Below the pieces are notes generated by a model. That model saw only the letters and a program-made list of their open reading frames with translations, did not search any database and was not told the origin of the DNA. A program made the translations under genes and the position numbers. From a bacterium (GTDB taxonomy: Bacteria; AUK180), in assembly GCA_023144005.1 (NCBI GenBank), contig JAGLGN010000027.1, forward strand, positions 15,703-79,702: a stretch of DNA of 64,000 nucleotides. The letters run 5' to 3'. Below are positions 45,833 through 63,896 of this stretch, one piece after another (within the stretch, counting starts at the first letter, position 1; each line of letters starts with the position of its first letter).

Positions 45833-48800
45833 CTATCTTACGATAGCAAATTTTCCGATAGCGGTGTCTCCGTCTATCTCATATACCCAGAAGTAGATAC
45901 CGGAAGCATATTCCAGTACATCAAGGGAGTAGAGAGTAGAAGCAACGATCTCGATCTCTTCCATTATTGAGCCTGAAACACTATAAATGGTGATCTTTCC
46001 GCCGTCCGCGACATTAGCGAAATTCACTACATCTGTGGTAACAGGATTAGGATAGAGTACCATGGCGTCAGCAGTCCCTGCAGCTATATCGAATACTGCA
46101 CTGGCCTGCATTCCCCAATCGATCAAGTATCCTTCTATATCTTCTATACCGGAAGTGGTCAGAGTATAAGCGCCTTCTGCAAGCTCAGATGCGAATGTTA
46201 GGCGCACAACAGTAGCGGATGTCCTGATTGCGGTAGAGGGTACCAGATCTCCGGGAGTAACCAGATAATTTCCCTCAAGTTCTCCTGTGGCCTGAGTTAT
46301 CTCTTCCGTAAAGGTCACATCCAGTACAGTATTGCTGACAACATCGATAGATGCGATTCCGGGAGGATTCACGGCTACGATCGCAAATGCGCCAGTGTTA
46401 ACTCCGCTGAATTCGACACCGTTTCCATCAGTATCTTCAACGCCTTCGACCGTGATCACATAATTATCCGGTGCAAAGAGTGAGGCGAAATCAAGCTGTA
46501 CGGTAGTCACAGAAGTCCTGGTCGCGGTAGCCGGAGTAATATTTCCGGGAGTCACAACAAAGTTGGCCTCTGTTTCAGCCGTTACCTGCGTAACCTCTTC
46601 ACTGAAGGTCAGTGTAAGAGTACTGTTATCGGTAACAACGGTATTTGTAAGCTCCGGCGGAGTTCCCACGCTGATAGAGAAGTTAAGCGCATTATTGCCG
46701 CTCAATTCAACCGCATTCGCTTCTGTATCTTCAACACCTTCCACGGTGAGCAGATAAAGCCCTTGAGCAAAAGGAGCAGCAAATACCAGTGTTACGGTAT
46801 TGGTTGTTATCCTCGTTGCGGATGCAGGTGAAATATCTCCTGCGGTCACAACATAATTACCCAAAGTCTGAGAAGAAGCAAGTGTCACTTCTTCGCTGAA
46901 AGTAACGGTGAGGGTAGCGGTATTAACTACATCAACAGCCGTCAGCTCAGGAGGACTTCCCACTGTGATGGTGAATTCTCCTTCATTCTCATTACTGAGT
47001 TCAATAGCGTTGCCGTCAACATCTTCCACACCTTCTATTGTAAGGGTATAAATATCCTGTGCGAAATCAGAAGCAAAGGTGAGCCGAACTGTATCGGTAT
47101 CGGTTCTTGAAGCAACAGTAGGATTAATATCTCCAACTGTTACAACATAATTGGCCAGGGTTTGAGCCGTAGCAAGCGTCACTTCTTCGCTGAAGTCAAG
47201 ATCCAGTGTATGATTGTCAACTACAGTTATGGTAACCAACTCTGGCGGTGTAAAATCAACGCTGAAGGGATGCGCGATATCTGTCATGGCAAATGGTATG
47301 GTATTTCCACCATAATCATATGCGTCGGCAAATACATAATACTTGTAATCACCGGTAGGTAATGAGTTACTATAAGATGTCGTATCAACGCCCAGGCCCT
47401 GGTAAACATACGGGGCCGGTTTCATATCACCTGAACCGTCAAGTTCGTAAATTGTGATCACATATGTGATCCCGTTTATCCCTGTAGGATTGCCCGCGAC
47501 CCAATTGTCGGTAAGTCCGTTTCCTGTGTAGAGATTCCACTCCAATGTGACTGGTCCGGCAAAAACAGTATCATCTGCGGTAACAATATCCACATAATCG
47601 ACCATATCAACGACAACATCCGTAACATCTGCAGAAAGGTCGGAGATCAGAGGATAATAGGATCCCGTAATAACACCGTCTATCCAATGGGCAACTGCAG
47701 GTGACAGATCATCATCTTCGGCTTCGGGGAAGACAATATATGTCACTCCCTCTTCAAGGCCGCCCTGGAATTCAAAGTATCCCGAACCGTCTGTGACAAC
47801 GGTCATGACCCTGTTTGCTGAATCCAGAAGCTCTTTATACTCATTATTTTTAAAGAGAGACATTGATAAGCCCGCAACCGGATCGTCCTGACCCCAGGAG
47901 ATTGCATGCGAATAGGCATTTCCTGCGATCTTGAGATTAGTGACCTTCTCAACATCGGACTGTTTTCTGACCAATATCTGATAATAGCTGGTGAATGGCG
48001 AATCATAATCCATCTGGCCGACAATACCAACTACCGTCACTGTTTCTCCGAGCGTGAAATCGGCCACGGCATCCCAGGTAATATCACCTGTACCGTCATA
48101 CCAGAAAACCGTTATCCCATAGGAATCGGTCTCTGTGGCATCCTGGACACCCAACTTGTTCCTGTTGGATGTCTTATCAATATAACTGACCACACCAGTG
48201 AATGTAACCAGCTGGCCTTCCTTGGCTTCGATATCCTGCCAGTTCTCTTCCAGTGTGGTATTAATGGCTTCGGGGGTGATCGTGGTTCCTGAAGGCGTGA
48301 TCGTAAAGGTGGTCGTATCAGATACTTTGACTTCAGTGGTACCTCTGTACTCTTCGACTTCGCCCTGACAGATGACCGTATCCCCTTCACTGATACTCAT
48401 TACTTCATAGGAAAATACATTTACTCCGCAGCCGCCTTCGGTCTGAACATAAATTGAGCTTCCGGAAAGTCCGAAAACACCCTGATCGACCGTGGCAATG
48501 CCTTTTATCCATACGGAATTGCCATTCTCCAGCGAATATGCGGGGGAATTAGGATCCGAAGCATTAAATGCCTGAATATCACAAATGTCCGTAAAGGTGA
48601 GATCAAGTGTAGGAACTTCGGTCGCCTCATCGGAAGAGGTTGTAGCAAGCGGCACACAGTTTTTAGCCAATACCTTGTAATAGTATGTTGTGCCGGTAGT
48701 CAAACCGGTATTCATATAACTCGTGGAAGTAAGATCGGAAGCGATCAGATTACCTACGATAATGTTAACGGGAGATGTAGTGCTTCCGTAAAGATCATAT

Positions 48801-51421
48801 GTAACAGCAACATTCTCCGCATCTGTGGCGGCATCCCAGTCAATATCCAGGCGTGCGCCTGATCCGGGATCGGTCGCGGCTATATTTGAAACGCCGGAAA
48901 CCGCCCAATCGGGGGCTGTAACATCAGTGCCTTCGCAACCAAGGACTATATCATCCGCGGAGCGGGGATTAATTGTGTAAATATCGAAACTATACGAAAC
49001 GAAGCCGGTGAGCTGGTCAAGGGCCTGTCCAAGAGGCATGTCCGCATGATAGATCATGTCATCAACTTCGATCTCTTTGGTACCCGCGGCATCCTTGATC
49101 CTCCAATAGCCGTGATTACCGGTAGCGGAAGAAACAACAACATCGTAAAATGTTACCAGAACGCCTTCATAGGACTCAGTGGTCGCATTACATGCAACTT
49201 CGCCGCCCGCGCCGCCGATCGCCTCGACGGTAACCGTTGTCGAATCATAAACAGTTGAAGCGCCGTTATTAGTATAAGAAGTAACATCGATGATCTCGGT
49301 AAGACCGTAATATTCATCTACGGTACCGGTAACGGTTACTTCATCACCGATGGCGGGTTTATTGGTATAGTCGTATACATAAATACCGTTCCATGCCCCG
49401 ACATCGTCAGCGATAAAATATTTATCGAAGCCGTCCGTCATAACAACTCCGGTGAGCGTTACGGGATTACCGTCATCCGGTGAAGAATAACAATCATCGC
49501 CGGAACCGGCAACGGAATTATTGAACTGCACCGCATATATTCCATCCGCAACAACCGCAGCGGGGGTGGTAATATCCAATTCATCGGAAGCAAGCATTGT
49601 CAGAGGCACACAGTTTCTCGCAACGATCTTGTAAAAATACTGTGTTTCAGCGGTCAAGCCGGTGCTGCTGCATGTGGTCGCTGTCTGCTCAGACGAGATA
49701 AGAGTCGCCGCCGAAGTATCCGCGATAGTAGCGGTATGTCTGTAAACATCGTATGTGACCGGCTCTGTATCCTGATCGGCATCCGTCGCGGCATCCCAGG
49801 AAAGCGCGACAGAGGTAGCGGTCGAATCGGTAAATGTAATATTTGAAACTCCTGAAACCGCCCAATCCGGTGCTGTAACATCACTATCATTACAAGCAAC
49901 CGTAACGGGAGCGGTAACGATATCAGAAGCATCTCTTGGATTCAATCTGTAAAAGTCATATCCATAAGAGAGAATACCTGTGATCTGACTTATCGTCTGT
50001 CCGTTTGCAATATCGGCCAGATAGAAAGTATCATCACAGGAAAGCTCCAGTGTTCCGCCTTGATCCTTGATCTTCCAGTATCCGTAATTACTTAGAGGTG
50101 AGCTGACTTCGACATTATAAAGTGTTACAAGGACGCCTTCATAGGCCTCGGTGCCAACATCACAACCCAATCCCCATTGTGCAGATCCTCCAATGCCCTC
50201 AACGGTAACCGTTGTCGCATTGTAGGAATTTCCTGAAGAATTTATCGTAAATGAGGTTACTGACGATAACTGTGTCAGTCCGAAATACTCATCAATTGTT
50301 CCGCTAACGGTAACATTATCTCCTACACTCGGATTATTGGCAGAATCATAAACCATAATTCCGTTCCATGTGCCGTCAGCGTCGGAAACGACATAACGTG
50401 AGCTGGCTTTGGCAGCCGTTACAATACCCTGTATGGTGACCACATTGGTCTCCTCGGGAGAATCATAACATTCTGCCCCTACCACGGCAGTCGTCTGTAT
50501 CACAGAAATGGCAGTGAGTGAATGATCCGGTGTAGTAACGCTCACCTCATCTGAAGAGAGCATTGTCAAAGGTACACAATTCGCTGCAACAACTTTGAAA
50601 TAATACAAAGTATTGGCGGAAAGCCCTGAATTTGTATATGTGGTGCCAACTATTCCCGAAGAAACCAGCGTGACCGACGAAGTATCAGAGATCGTAGCGG
50701 TACTTCGATAAAGATCATAGGTCACCGGTTCGGTATCCTGATCAGCATCCGTAGCGGCATCCCAGGAAAGATCAACTGAAACCGCGGTCGAATCGGTAAA
50801 TGTAATATTTGAAACAGTTGTAACCGTCCAATCCGGCGCTGTAACATCACTGTCATTGCAGCTGGATGACGCGCTTGGATAATCACATGTATGGGTTTGA
50901 GGAGTAGCTGCCGCAGAACTGTCATTCGGACCGATTGTCCATTCCGAAGCGGTCCATGTAGTATTTCCAGTGCCGACCGTGGGAACTCTGGTAGCGACCC
51001 TGTCCGTATATTCCCATGCTTCCGTAGTACCGTCAATGCCGATAACACCGTATACATCAATGGGAGTACCATTATTCACCAGTTCATATACATCATCACC
51101 GTTTCCGACATTGATTCCGGTCTCCCAGTCAGCGGTTTTACTGAAAGCAGTAGTAAATACCGTACCGTTATATGTCGCAACTTTTGCTTCACCGGGCGCT
51201 ATCGATCCTGTAAAGTCAAAGGTGCTACTGGAAGTTCCTGAACCGTTGACATAATAATTGAGTGTGTAATCGGTCAAATCAATGGATGAGTCGGTGGGAT
51301 TGTAGATTTCAATATACCTTGCTTCCCAGCTCTCGAAATGATCACATATTTCAGATAATATCAGATCACCGAAGACTAGAGGTGCAAGGGCCAATAATAA
51401 AAAAATAATAAGTTTCTTCAT
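45833..51421 (-). CDS. Giant secreted protein: lamin-tail, FN3, OB-like and Ig-like repeats, C-terminal sorting domain
   Basis: 1862 residues. After the signal peptide comes a lamin-tail domain (LILSEICDHFESWEARYIEIYN, about 20-170). Then alternate FN3 repeats (DVTAPDW...DLYRSTATISDT) and OB-like modules (VTIQGIVTA...GIMVYDSANNPSVGDNVTVSGT), roughly three rounds. In the C-terminal third are four copies of an Ig-like module of about 90 residues (PPELTxxxV...TFSEEVTxAxxxTxxNYVVT). The last 75 residues start MVLYPNP and end GKFAIVR, a T9SS-like sorting signal. No catalytic domain was seen; likely a surface or extracellular adhesin or matrix protein. It lies 16 bases downstream of the PorV-like gene, its probable secretion partner. 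Confidence 0.8.
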   Translation of the reverse strand: MKKLIIFLLLALAPLVFGDLILSEICDHFESWEARYIEIYNPTDSSIDLTDYTLNYYVNGSGTSSSTFDFTGSIAPGEAKVATYNGTVFTTAFSKTADWETGINVGNGDDVYELVNNGTPIDVYGVIGIDGTTEAWEYTDRVATRVPTVGTGNTTWTASEWTIGPNDSSAAATPQTHTCDYPSASSSCNDSDVTAPDWTVTTVSNITFTDSTAVSVDLSWDAATDADQDTEPVTYDLYRSTATISDTSSVTLVSSGIVGTTYTNSGLSANTLYYFKVVAANCVPLTMLSSDEVSVTTPDHSLTAISVIQTTAVVGAECYDSPEETNVVTIQGIVTAAKASSRYVVSDADGTWNGIMVYDSANNPSVGDNVTVSGTIDEYFGLTQLSSVTSFTINSSGNSYNATTVTVEGIGGSAQWGLGCDVGTEAYEGVLVTLYNVEVSSPLSNYGYWKIKDQGGTLELSCDDTFYLADIANGQTISQITGILSYGYDFYRLNPRDASDIVTAPVTVACNDSDVTAPDWAVSGVSNITFTDSTATSVALSWDAATDADQDTEPVTYDVYRHTATIADTSAATLISSEQTATTCSSTGLTAETQYFYKIVARNCVPLTMLASDELDITTPAAVVADGIYAVQFNNSVAGSGDDCYSSPDDGNPVTLTGVVMTDGFDKYFIADDVGAWNGIYVYDYTNKPAIGDEVTVTGTVDEYYGLTEIIDVTSYTNNGASTVYDSTTVTVEAIGGAGGEVACNATTESYEGVLVTFYDVVVSSATGNHGYWRIKDAAGTKEIEVDDMIYHADMPLGQALDQLTGFVSYSFDIYTINPRSADDIVLGCEGTDVTAPDWAVSGVSNIAATDPGSGARLDIDWDAATDAENVAVTYDLYGSTTSPVNIIVGNLIASDLTSTSYMNTGLTTGTTYYYKVLAKNCVPLATTSSDEATEVPTLDLTFTDICDIQAFNASDPNSPAYSLENGNSVWIKGIATVDQGVFGLSGSSIYVQTEGGCGVNVFSYEVMSISEGDTVICQGEVEEYRGTTEVKVSDTTTFTITPSGTTITPEAINTTLEENWQDIEAKEGQLVTFTGVVSYIDKTSNRNKLGVQDATETDSYGITVFWYDGTGDITWDAVADFTLGETVTVVGIVGQMDYDSPFTSYYQILVRKQSDVEKVTNLKIAGNAYSHAISWGQDDPVAGLSMSLFKNNEYKELLDSANRVMTVVTDGSGYFEFQGGLEEGVTYIVFPEAEDDDLSPAVAHWIDGVITGSYYPLISDLSADVTDVVVDMVDYVDIVTADDTVFAGPVTLEWNLYTGNGLTDNWVAGNPTGINGITYVITIYELDGSGDMKPAPYVYQGLGVDTTSYSNSLPTGDYKYYVFADAYDYGGNTIPFAMTDIAHPFSVDFTPPELVTITVVDNHTLDLDFSEEVTLATAQTLANYVVTVGDINPTVASRTDTDTVRLTFASDFAQDIYTLTIEGVEDVDGNAIELSNENEGEFTITVGSPPELTAVDVVNTATLTVTFSEEVTLASSQTLGNYVVTAGDISPASATRITTNTVTLVFAAPFAQGLYLLTVEGVEDTEANAVELSGNNALNFSISVGTPPELTNTVVTDNSTLTLTFSEEVTQVTAETEANFVVTPGNITPATATRTSVTTVQLDFASLFAPDNYVITVEGVEDTDGNGVEFSGVNTGAFAIVAVNPPGIASIDVVSNTVLDVTFTEEITQATGELEGNYLVTPGDLVPSTAIRTSATVVRLTFASELAEGAYTLTTSGIEDIEGYLIDWGMQASAVFDIAAGTADAMVLYPNPVTTDVVNFANVADGGKITIYSVSGSIMEEIEIVASTLYSLDVLEYASGIYFWVYEIDGDTAIGKFAIVR

Positions 51422-56010: not shown

Positions 56011-56038
56011 TTGTCAGAAGAAAATATTTTGATATAAT
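56011..56038 (+). promoter_or_regulatory. Predicted leaderless promoter of pyruvate kinase
   Basis: TTGTCA (56011-56016), 16 bp spacer, TATAAT (56033-56038), five bases before the ATG at 56044. There is no room for an SD. Confidence 0.6.
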
Positions 56039-56043
56039 ATGCT

Positions 56044-57633
56044 ATGAAAAGAACAAAAGTGATCGTAACTTACGGGCCTGGTATTTCCGACAAGGAAATA
56101 TTGAAAAAGGTCCTTTTGAACGGTGCCGATGGGATACGGCTTAATTTTTCTCATATGGAGCCGGCAGAGCTGAAGGCGCAGGTTAAGTATTTCAGGGACC
56201 TGGAGAAAGAATGGGACTTGTTAATACCGCTTTTCGGCGACATCCCCGGACCTAAGGTGCGTATATTTAATATTGGTAAGGAATTGGCGGTTCAAAGAGG
56301 TCAAACATTAAAACTCTCACGAGAGAACTTCAATTTCCCTTCGATATTGAGCTCAATGAAAATCGGTGATCGCCTTCTCTTTGATGATGGAAAGATCGCG
56401 GCAAAAGTAACAAAAAAAGCTCAAAAAAATGTTGAAATAGTTTTCTCAAGTAAAGGAATACTCAAAGCGAGAAAAGGTGTCAGTTTTCCTGATACCAAAT
56501 TAAAACTGCCGGCCCTTTCAAAAAGAGACCTTGAGTTCGTCGAAATGGCGGTTAAGGCGAACATCGATTATCTTTTCCTCTCATTCACCTGTACAGCGGA
56601 AGGGATAATAAAATTAAAGAGAAAACTTCACGAGTTAAGCGCCGATATTCCCGTAATCGCAAAGATCGAAACAAATGAAGGCATAAAAAACCGCAAGGAC
56701 ATAGCAAAGGCCGCAGACGGTATACTCGTCGCACGCGGTGACCTTGGCATTGAAACAGATATCGCCATACTGCCCGTAGTTCAAGACCGCCTCATTAAGA
56801 GTGCGAATAAACTGGGAAAGATCTCAATGGTGGCAACGGAAGTCCTTGATTCCATGATATTAAACAAAGTGCCGCTAAGGGCGGAGATATCCGATATCTC
56901 AAAAATGGTGGAAGAGGAAGTTGATATAGTGCTGCTCACTTCGGAAACCTCCATCGGAAAAAATCCCGTCAAGGTCATCAAAGTGTTGTCGGATGTTCTG
57001 CGCAAAAATGAGCGGATCTTTTTAAGAAAACCCAAAAAGCGGATCCCGGATATTTCTTCGGACGCTTTCCCGCAAACCGCGGCGATCACACGATCTATTT
57101 ATGCAAACGCCACTGAAAATTCAACAGACCTTATAATTACTGTTTCAAGGACTGGACTGACTTCACGGCTGCTGTCCAAATACAGGCCGTACGCCCCGAT
57201 AATAATGGCGTCAGATGATAGGCAGTCGCTTCGAAGAGCGGTGGCTCTCTGGAATGTATTCCCATTCTATCAAAAGAAGATATTCCGCTCCACAGATGCG
57301 GATATCGTGTCCGCTGTGTCTAAGTACAGAGGACTGAGATCCGGAGACAAGGTCATCATATCCCGTGGACGGCCCCACGAAATATCAGGAAGCACCAATT
57401 CCTTTTCGGTTTTCATTGTAAAGAACCAGGAGACATTCATTTCAGGTGGGAAAAAAGTATCACTGGATACCGGAAAATGTATGATCTGCGGTAAGTGTAT
57501 AGATATTTGCGCGTTTTCTGTTTTTAAGCGAAAAAAAGGCATTATCGAAGTTGCTGATGAAAATTTGTGTATCGGCGATGGCCTTTGCATTGATATCTGT
57601 CCCCGGGGAGCGATCAAGATACATGGCAGGTAA
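56044..57633 (+). CDS. pyk: Pyruvate kinase fused to a C-terminal ferredoxin domain
   Basis: 529 residues. Residues 1-470 are a complete pyruvate kinase, which transfers phosphate from phosphoenolpyruvate to ADP: IRLNFSH (R32-H37), GPKVR (69-73), catalytic Lys in VIAKIETNEG (about 207) and VARGDLGIE. A short linker (SGGKKVSLDTGK) leads to a ferredoxin-like dicluster domain: CMICGKCIDIC (C479, C482, C485, C489) and CIGDGLCIDICP (C509, D512, C515, C519). In the second motif Asp replaces the second Cys, the CxxDxxC pattern of archaeal ferredoxins whose cluster is Asp-ligated or converts to [3Fe-4S]. The fusion is unusual; redox control of the kinase or docking to a ferredoxin partner is inference. 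The frame is continuous with no frameshift, and ManC overlaps by 11 bases. Confidence 0.88.
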   Translation: MKRTKVIVTYGPGISDKEILKKVLLNGADGIRLNFSHMEPAELKAQVKYFRDLEKEWDLLIPLFGDIPGPKVRIFNIGKELAVQRGQTLKLSRENFNFPSILSSMKIGDRLLFDDGKIAAKVTKKAQKNVEIVFSSKGILKARKGVSFPDTKLKLPALSKRDLEFVEMAVKANIDYLFLSFTCTAEGIIKLKRKLHELSADIPVIAKIETNEGIKNRKDIAKAADGILVARGDLGIETDIAILPVVQDRLIKSANKLGKISMVATEVLDSMILNKVPLRAEISDISKMVEEEVDIVLLTSETSIGKNPVKVIKVLSDVLRKNERIFLRKPKKRIPDISSDAFPQTAAITRSIYANATENSTDLIITVSRTGLTSRLLSKYRPYAPIIMASDDRQSLRRAVALWNVFPFYQKKIFRSTDADIVSAVSKYRGLRSGDKVIISRGRPHEISGSTNSFSVFIVKNQETFISGGKKVSLDTGKCMICGKCIDICAFSVFKRKKGIIEVADENLCIGDGLCIDICPRGAIKIHGR

Positions 57634-61859: not shown

Positions 61860-62360
61860 TTAGAATTCCCTGCCACCCTCATAATTGATCTGATACCAGA
61901 GCTTGATAAATGTATTGGTATTTGTTCCGCCTGTCTCGACCACTACAAATTTACCCCAGACAGCACCCATATCAAATTGAAAATAGTAAACAAAGCCCTG
62001 CTTGATATTTATATTCGGCATATACGCAGAATACATAGGGTCAGGCGCCTCTGTGAAATCTTCTAAAGTGCCTTCTCCCACCTCATAGAAATTCATGTCC
62101 ATAGACATAGATTCAAGGTGAAAATGTGGATCAACATCTGTATACGGATACAAATATATATCGGGGTAATAATTCACATCTTCTAAAATATCTTTGAAAT
62201 AGAAATACTTCCCGGCGTATGCCTTTAATTCGCTTACAGGCATTTGCGATTTAAAGGTCTTCACAGCATTGGGAAGCCCGACGGTCAATTTTGCCCAGCC
62301 ACAGGGGACCGCAGAGAAGTAAAATACTGCCAGAGCAAGCAAGAAAACGATCTTCTTCAT
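61860..62360 (-). CDS. Secreted protein, tandem paralogue 2
   Basis: 166 residues: signal peptide (MKKIVFLLALAVFYFSAVPCGWA) and a compact beta-rich domain with YFKDILEDVN, EVGEGTLEDFTEAPDP and KFVVVETGGT. Not recognised. It is very similar to the upstream gene, with the same GREF C-terminus. Its ATG overlaps the upstream stop (TGATG), with GGAGAG in the last codons of the upstream gene. Confidence 0.65.
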   Translation of the reverse strand: MKKIVFLLALAVFYFSAVPCGWAKLTVGLPNAVKTFKSQMPVSELKAYAGKYFYFKDILEDVNYYPDIYLYPYTDVDPHFHLESMSMDMNFYEVGEGTLEDFTEAPDPMYSAYMPNINIKQGFVYYFQFDMGAVWGKFVVVETGGTNTNTFIKLWYQINYEGGREF

Positions 62361-62854
62361 CAGAATTCTCTCCCGCCTTTATAATTTATCTGATACCAGA
62401 GTTTGATGAAGGTATCATCACCGGTTCCGCCGGTCTCGACCACTACAAATTTACCCCAGACATCACCCATATCAAATTGGAAATAGTAAACAAAGCCCTC
62501 TTTGATAATTACATTCGTCATATACATGTAATTCATAGGGTCAGGCGCCTCTGTGAAATCTTCCAAAGTGCCTTCTCCCACTTCATAAAAAGATATGTAC
62601 ATGGATTCAAGGTAAAAATCCGACACCATCGATTGAAGCGGGTACAAGTATAAATATGGAGAATAATTCACATCCTCTAAAATATCTTTGAAATAAAAAA
62701 GCTTTCCGGAGTATATCTTGAGTTCACTTACAGGCATTTGATCTTTGAAGGCCTTTACAGCATTGGGGAGTCCGACGGTAAACTTTGCCCAGCCGCATGG
62801 GACCGCGGAGAAGAAAAATCCTGAAACTAATATCGCAAGCATTATTTTCTTCAT
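62360..62854 (-). CDS. Secreted protein, tandem paralogue 1
   Basis: About 164 residues, closely similar along its whole length to the downstream paralogue (FSAVPCGWAK, KLFYFKDILEDVN, GDVWGKFVVVETGG). A signal peptide is present; the mature protein is probably periplasmic. The chosen ATG at 62854 lies after AAAGGT; an adjacent ATG at 62857 is equally possible. The function is unknown, and it forms an operon with the CsgG-like gene upstream. Confidence 0.65.
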   Translation of the reverse strand: MKKIMLAILVSGFFFSAVPCGWAKFTVGLPNAVKAFKDQMPVSELKIYSGKLFYFKDILEDVNYSPYLYLYPLQSMVSDFYLESMYISFYEVGEGTLEDFTEAPDPMNYMYMTNVIIKEGFVYYFQFDMGDVWGKFVVVETGGTGDDTFIKLWYQINYKGGREF

Positions 62855-62864
62855 CATTAAACCT

Positions 62865-63896
62865 TTAGAAGTAAAAGCTGAGGGCGGTATTAAAAACCCC
62901 ATTGACGCCGCTTTCCTGGAAGCCCGCTTCCATATTGGTATTCTTCATATCCATGAACACCGCCCCTATATCGGCGGAAAGTGAAGCGTTGCCAAGGAAA
63001 AAGTATTCAGCTCCCAAAAAGGCACCCACATAATAACCCGCGCCTTCAAGGCCGTAAATAGAAAAACGCAAATAGCCTATCTCCAGTCCGCTTTGAATTG
63101 CTATGGGACCGAAGTTAAAAAATGAATATGTGAATTTCGGGCCGATGAGCCATGAAGAATCATCGAAAGAGAACTTCAATTCACTTTGCATTTTTGCGGA
63201 GATATTGTACTTAGCGGAAATAGAAAGGGTTCCGACAGCTATCCCGAATTTCTTGAATGTCTCGGGAGAATCTTTTACGGGTTTCTCCTTTTTTATCTTC
63301 TTCACTTTCTTTACTTTCTCTACCTTCTCCGGCTTCGCCTCTTTGCTCTTTTTCACTTTCTTAGGTTTTTCCTTCTTCACTTTAGTTGATTTTTTTACCG
63401 CATCTTTTTTAGCGGAGCCGCCGGGCTGCAGCAAACGAAGATGTTCGTCAAAGATCTCCCGACTCAAAGAACCCGCTAATTTTACAAGAGATTCGATCTT
63501 TCCTTCCACCGAAGCGGATTTGGAAAATACAATTTCTGAGGACTGCACATTGATACCTTTGATATTTAGGTAATACAATGTCCCCAGTTTTGAAACGCTT
63601 CCGATAACCATCAGATTCGCCGCCAATATCTTTCCGACCTTAACGGCACATGCCGCGTCCGAGCATCCGGAAAGCTGAAGATTCTGTTCCTCAAGAACCG
63701 CGGCCATTAATCCCCTGTCAAGGATCTTAAGGCCGGGACGGCCGATCAGTACATTTCTGAACTCATCGGAGCAGATCATTGCCGCACTTGATTCTACATC
63801 ATTGACTTGAAAGTCCTGTACGGCTATGACGGTTTCCGCGAAAACTGTGGCAGAAAACAACATCAAAACAATTATTATAGGTAACTTCGACTTCAT
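62865..63896 (-). CDS. CsgG-like protein fused to an outer-membrane barrel by a Lys-rich linker
   Basis: 343 residues in three parts: signal peptide and CsgG/FlgO-like domain (TVIAVQDFQV, GLKILDRGLMAAVLEEQ, ILAANLMVIGSVS; about 20-155), a Lys/Glu/Pro-rich linker of KVKK and KPEKVEK repeats (about 165-210), and beta strands ending TALSFYF (C-terminal Phe). It possibly spans periplasm and outer membrane, with the linker bridging. The role is unknown. It has a strong promoter, and MITE copy E starts upstream of it. Confidence 0.68.
   Translation of the reverse strand: MKSKLPIIIVLMLFSATVFAETVIAVQDFQVNDVESSAAMICSDEFRNVLIGRPGLKILDRGLMAAVLEEQNLQLSGCSDAACAVKVGKILAANLMVIGSVSKLGTLYYLNIKGINVQSSEIVFSKSASVEGKIESLVKLAGSLSREIFDEHLRLLQPGGSAKKDAVKKSTKVKKEKPKKVKKSKEAKPEKVEKVKKVKKIKKEKPVKDSPETFKKFGIAVGTLSISAKYNISAKMQSELKFSFDDSSWLIGPKFTYSFFNFGPIAIQSGLEIGYLRFSIYGLEGAGYYVGAFLGAEYFFLGNASLSADIGAVFMDMKNTNMEAGFQESGVNGVFNTALSFYF

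Follow-up and report, generated by a model that had tools for sequence, protein, structure and literature searches.

Pyruvate kinase (PK) is known to be controlled by small metabolites, including sugar phosphates, nucleotides, and amino acids. The choice between ATP production, the formation of H2 or acetate, and gluconeogenesis is made, in many anaerobes, at the PEP/pyruvate/ferredoxin node. Extra C-terminal domains are a further known means of PK control. The ECTD of the Bacillus subtilis PK is required for autoinhibition and gluconeogenesis, and its loss lowers PEP and growth (PMC11834443). The PK of Thermoplasma acidophilum needs an extra C-terminal sequence for an active tetramer (PMC12428139). 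Searches of the open-access literature turned up no PK that bears a ferredoxin domain or an Fe-S domain. The window considered here, which is the whole 64,000-nucleotide stretch of DNA that was analyzed, encodes a PK followed by a dicluster ferredoxin (Fd) domain, and the claim of an earlier note that no standard enzyme has this architecture holds within the open-access literature searched. The novelty lies in the type of domain; extra C-terminal PK domains as such are already known.

The PK-Fd fusion gene (56044..57633, + strand) is a single uninterrupted frame that encodes 529 amino acids and runs from ATG to TAA. Pfam places the PK domain at residues 1-311 (232 bits), PK_C at 347-456, Fer4_7 at 478-523, and Fer4 at 505-525. 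Against TIGR01064, the NCBIfam equivalog for PK, the protein scores 368.8 with a cut-off of 306.4. It had been proposed from the sequence that a complete PK is followed in frame by a dicluster Fd domain, and the uninterrupted frame, the Pfam domains, and TIGR01064 bear this out. The possibility, raised in the same proposal, that a sequencing error united two genes is ruled out, as is an error of assembly, because the full-length fusion recurs in seven species of the class and in one species of a second phylum (genome G110).

The PK part shares its whole fold and its catalytic residues with PKs of the TIGR01064 type (PF00224 plus PF02887). The barrel with its inserted B domain (residues 1-311; 56044..56976, +), recognized by Pfam and by a fold match with a Z of 49 to the Staphylococcus aureus PK 3t05, and the C-terminal, effector-binding alpha/beta domain (residues 347-456; 57082..57411, +), recognized by Pfam, are all present over their full length. 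The closest solved PKs are 3t05 and the Geobacillus stearothermophilus enzyme 2e28, which align over residues 1-462 only, and in VIA-align residues 1-460 match PK structures with Z values of 47-49. Residues R32, N34, S36, D66, K71, R73, K207, E209, D233, and T265 are kept in all four fusions compared (the window, G004 and G005 of the class, and G110). Seven of them, R32, N34, D66, K207, E209, D233, and T265, the last also within the PK barrel, align with catalytic or metal-binding residues of 3t05 and 2e28; S36 and R73 also line up with catalytic residues of known PKs. The effector-loop region is likewise recognizable as SRTGLTSRLLSKYRP, aligned with that of the same two structures. K71 occupies rabbit PK position 117, where Lys is the mark of the K+-independent group, so that PK-Fd fits this group as it is defined in that study (PMC12428139). 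Because the catalytic residues are kept and the effector loop is recognizable, this part of the fusion should, judging from its sequence, be a functional and possibly allosteric PK. It is also the sole PK detected in its own genome (96% complete), in which a search for a second, ordinary PK found none.

In the PKs of Bacillota and cyanobacteria that carry an ECTD (B. subtilis, 2e28, 3t05), as in PK-Fd, an extra domain follows immediately on the PK C domain. The two appended domains differ in kind, however. The ECTD has a PEP-utilizer/PPDK phosphohistidine-type fold, which PK-Fd lacks, whereas the tail of PK-Fd is an unrelated dicluster ferredoxin. The C-terminal extension of the T. acidophilum PK is also unrelated to this tail. 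Among the PKs examined outside the class and G110, none carries an Fd domain.

The Fd domain (residues 475-529; 57466..57630, +) matches only Fer4-type Fe-S families, with scores of 32 bits for Fer4 (cut-off 21.1) and 27 bits for Fer4_7 (cut-off 27), and it matches ferredoxins in the PDB. Fer4_7 and Fer4_10 are matched by the Fd domains of all eight fusions. There is a general similarity to HgcB and related small dicluster ferredoxins (NF040864), but the score of 38 bits falls far under the cut-off of 99, and identity with HgcB is ruled out. Cluster motif I (57478..57510, +) is canonical, C479xxC482xxC485xxxC489, and is followed by Ala, which is Pro in most relatives. Cluster motif II (57568..57600, +) reads C509xxD512xxC515xxxC519P, with the Asp codon at 57577-57579. 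The domain has seven Cys in place of the eight of a doubled CxxCxxCxxxC, the second Cys of motif II being replaced by Asp, or by Glu in G001. The earlier description of a canonical first motif and of Asp512 for Cys in the second agrees with the sequence on both counts.

CxxDxxC clusters are usually of higher potential or labile. Among characterized ferredoxins of the Asp-ligated or 7Fe kind, the Asp is known from motif I, and in the motif of Desulfovibrio africanus ferredoxin III an Asp replaces a Cys. Both this protein and the Pyrococcus furiosus ferredoxin share with PK-Fd an acidic residue for the second Cys of CxxCxxC, but the PK-Fd domain is fused to an enzyme and carries the residue in motif II. 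The likeness to such ferredoxins drawn in the earlier note is sound as regards the replacement of Cys by Asp, with a small reservation about the motif in which it occurs. The [3Fe-4S] site of D. africanus ferredoxin III, a 7Fe ferredoxin, is reactive and incorporates metal ions (PMC13111528). Site 512, within the CxxDxxC of residues 509-515, is Asp or Glu in all eight PK-Fd fusions, whereas Cys occupies the equivalent site in 13 other, equally spaced dicluster Fds from the fetched loci and one looser match has Asn. This contrast indicates that the acidic residue belongs to the PK-Fd architecture. From these motifs, the domain would hold an all-Cys [4Fe-4S] cluster bound by the first three Cys of motif I and the last Cys of motif II. 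The second cluster, with an acidic residue for one Cys, would be a [3Fe-4S] or a labile, Asp-ligated [4Fe-4S] cluster. It is conceivable that an acid-ligated cluster of this type is lost on exposure to O2 or on iron starvation, and that PK is then inactivated or degraded and glycolysis is halted. The acidic residue conserved at the ligand position in all eight fusions and the reactive cluster of the D. africanus protein are in keeping with such a switch. As an explanation in its own right it is distinctly improbable, and it could instead be one aspect of a regulatory role of the domain.

Conservation within the class extends to the entire protein. The full fusion is found in the six other class genomes, in each of which the match spans query residues 1-526 or more, and its identity to the window is 95% within the genus, 46-48% within the family, and 35-36% to the second family. 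A 95%-identical fusion on JAGLWT010000050.1 (bacterium isolate RS_12_30) is the same protein as that of G001 and apparently lies on the same contig. The search for homologues with both domains that the earlier note called for thus found them in all seven class genomes, and its alternative, that homologues would always lack the ferredoxin part, fails; an Fd-less PK was looked for in the seven genomes and none was found. The seven cluster Cys are invariant across the class, in which residue 512 is Asp in six genomes and Glu in one. Identity within the family is 52, 53, and 52% for Fd and 48-49% for PK, and between the families it is 33-36% and 36-37%, respectively. The linker (residues 457-474; 57412..57465, +), variable in the alignment of the relatives, has an identity of only 10-33%. 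That Fd comes close to PK in its conservation while the linker does not indicates that the Fd domain itself is under selection.

The AlphaFold2 model of PK-Fd, which was built from the alignment of relatives and as a monomer only, has a mean pLDDT of 84.8. Confidence is about 90 for the PK part, below 50 for linker residues 461-468, and 73-82 for Fd. From the monomer model, no reliable placement of Fd against PK can be derived. One alternative to a sensory function is that the clusters only fold or stabilize the PK tetramer and carry no signal in vivo. The tail is short, Fe-S clusters are often structural, and the T. acidophilum PK offers a precedent in an unrelated sequence that its active tetramer requires. 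For a purely structural part, a dicluster Fd of the redox type whose acidic ligand site is conserved would nonetheless be an odd choice, and the PKs of other phyla manage without Fd. A solely structural tail is accordingly considered unlikely.

The fusion is rare. A profile of the junction between the C domain and Fd was used to search a sample of 386 genomes from across the domain, with the eight best candidates scored in most genomes. Among the candidates so scored, fusions came from all seven genomes of the class and from G110, the only genome available for its phylum. The rest of the sample yielded no further fusions among the scored candidates, and a near-repeat from another centre gave the same outcome. 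At the thresholds used, the 185 genomes searched from the G264 phylum yielded no fusion, and none was found in 50 genomes of the G116 phylum or in two further sets of other phyla comprising 3 and 3 genomes. Altogether the fusion was absent from about 610 other genomes searched, and since only the best candidates were scored in most of them, this rarity is a good estimate, short of a census. Ferredoxin matches at three loci in a scan of genome contigs (L036-L038) were considered as PK fusions and are none.

In G110, an ordinary-looking PK is followed by CNGCGLCVEECAF...CAVDDFCINVCP, again with CxxDxxC. In the PK trees the class forms one supported clade, and the G110 protein falls among ordinary PKs. 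A single origin of the fusion had p = 0.26 in an AU test with 20 rows and p = 0.002 with 24 rows, among them PKs without Fd from the G144 phylum. The placement of the G110 PK apart from the class suggests that the tail was probably gained twice, independently. The trees were quick ones with long branches and a short tree search, so that two origins are likely rather than proved.

The surroundings of the gene are less constant than the gene itself. A sigma70-like promoter, TTGTCA-16-TATAAT (56011..56038, +), ends 5 nt before the ATG and matches the consensus at 11 of 12 positions, the assignment being a consensus match only. This near-consensus promoter is present in G000 and, in identical form, in G001. 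The segment 56011-56046 of the window has an extended -10, and the predicted transcript start coincides with the ATG, making PK-Fd a candidate for a possibly leaderless transcript. Downstream, a nucleotidyltransferase gene (mannose-1-phosphate guanylyltransferase-like, PF00483; 57623..58816, +) overlaps PK-Fd by 11 nt. This neighbor is common to G001-G004, which belong to the same family (f1), and is absent in the second family (f2), where a rotamase-type protein follows PK-Fd; in G110 the next gene encodes FtsH. No PFOR, hydrogenase, or ferredoxin genes were recognized beside PK-Fd in the stretches read. As the neighbors differ between families and none is a redox gene, the fusion, rather than an operon, is the conserved unit.

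Several other features were observed near these loci. At two loci of the second family (L077 and L076), the region upstream of PK-Fd contains CCTATCCTCCACCA, which resembles a tRNA 3' end. In the window, an 830-amino-acid protein of the clostripain family (PF03415; 59200-61692, -) carries at its C terminus a tail of the sorting type (Por_Secre_tail, at 25.6 bits slightly below the cut-off), and a frame of 1862 amino acids at 45833-51421 ends in a similar tail. These predicted tails hint at a type IX-like secretion system. Tandem secreted paralogues of 160-180 amino acids (SAVPCGWAK...GLPNAVK) lie at 61860-62902 (-) of the window and at 1231-2270 of locus L072, and their content differs between the two species of the genus.

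The host bacterium is anaerobe-like. POR_N-family genes (PFOR and relatives) are present in all seven class genomes, as is PPDK, which is above the cut-off in six. Together they make a switchable PEP/pyruvate/ferredoxin node likely in the class. In six class genomes (G000:C35:151019-158063, and matching places in G001-G005), PPDK lies about 4 kb from a POR_N gene of 600 amino acids that is indolepyruvate:ferredoxin oxidoreductase alpha-like; the pair forms a conserved PEP/ferredoxin neighborhood away from PK-Fd. POR_N genes also occur in G110 and in G144, whose phylum has a PK with no Fd tail. PFOR alone consequently does not explain the tail, and the metabolic setting is not specific to the fusion.

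The same observations bear on the possibility that the tail carries electrons as a tethered domain and binds to PFOR or a similar enzyme, joining it to PK so that pyruvate is handed on and electrons exit via the tail. By profile the Fd domain is an ordinary dicluster Fd, and the POR_N-family genes of the class and of G110 could supply a partner. Linkage to a PFOR gene was not seen in the stretches read, however, G144 combines PFOR-family genes with a tail-less PK, and a cluster of higher potential or greater lability would be less suited to PFOR. An electron carrier of this kind is improbable, and the earlier suggestion that the fusion directs pyruvate to PFOR finds little support.

The other suggestion of the earlier note, a link between glycolysis and the redox state of ferredoxin, is plausible. 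The most likely reading is that the tail, comparable in role to the unrelated ECTD, is a C-terminal regulatory domain of a working PK and uses its Fe-S clusters to sense redox or iron; this reading is about as probable as not. On its side are the known control of PK by extra C-terminal domains, as in B. subtilis, the conservation in all seven class genomes, the invariant Cys, the acidic residue 512, the recurrence in G110, the kept active site, the conservation of Fd at about the level of PK, the PPDK and POR_N-family genes of the class, and the reactive cluster of D. africanus ferredoxin III. Counted against it are that no PFOR, hydrogenase, or ferredoxin gene was recognized next to PK-Fd in the stretches read, that the model yields no reliable docking, and that POR_N genes also accompany a tail-less PK. 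Under this regulatory reading, changes in redox, oxygen, or iron status would make the clusters either trade electrons with the pool of ferredoxin or take up and release the labile iron. Fd, joined to the end of the effector-binding C domain through a short linker, would shift the T/R balance of the tetramer and move PK activity up or down. As to the direction of control, we infer that the PEP to pyruvate step would be turned down when ferredoxin is reduced and PEP is needed, with pyruvate synthesis plus PPDK in operation, and turned up when ferredoxin is oxidized. Cells that also possess PPDK and 2-oxoacid:ferredoxin oxidoreductases would then adjust their use of PEP to the ferredoxin pool.

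Overall, it may be, as a tentative and somewhat doubtful proposal, that the PK of this class is gated directly by the ferredoxin pool through an Fe-S domain with an acid-ligated cluster, an undescribed redox allostery that evolved independently in a second phylum. That PKs of two phyla carry the same kind of acidic-ligand ferredoxin provides a built-in replicate, and so small and soluble a system is easy to test. Through an Fe-S domain of its own, a PK would link the PEP/pyruvate/ferredoxin node to electron supply within a single molecule.
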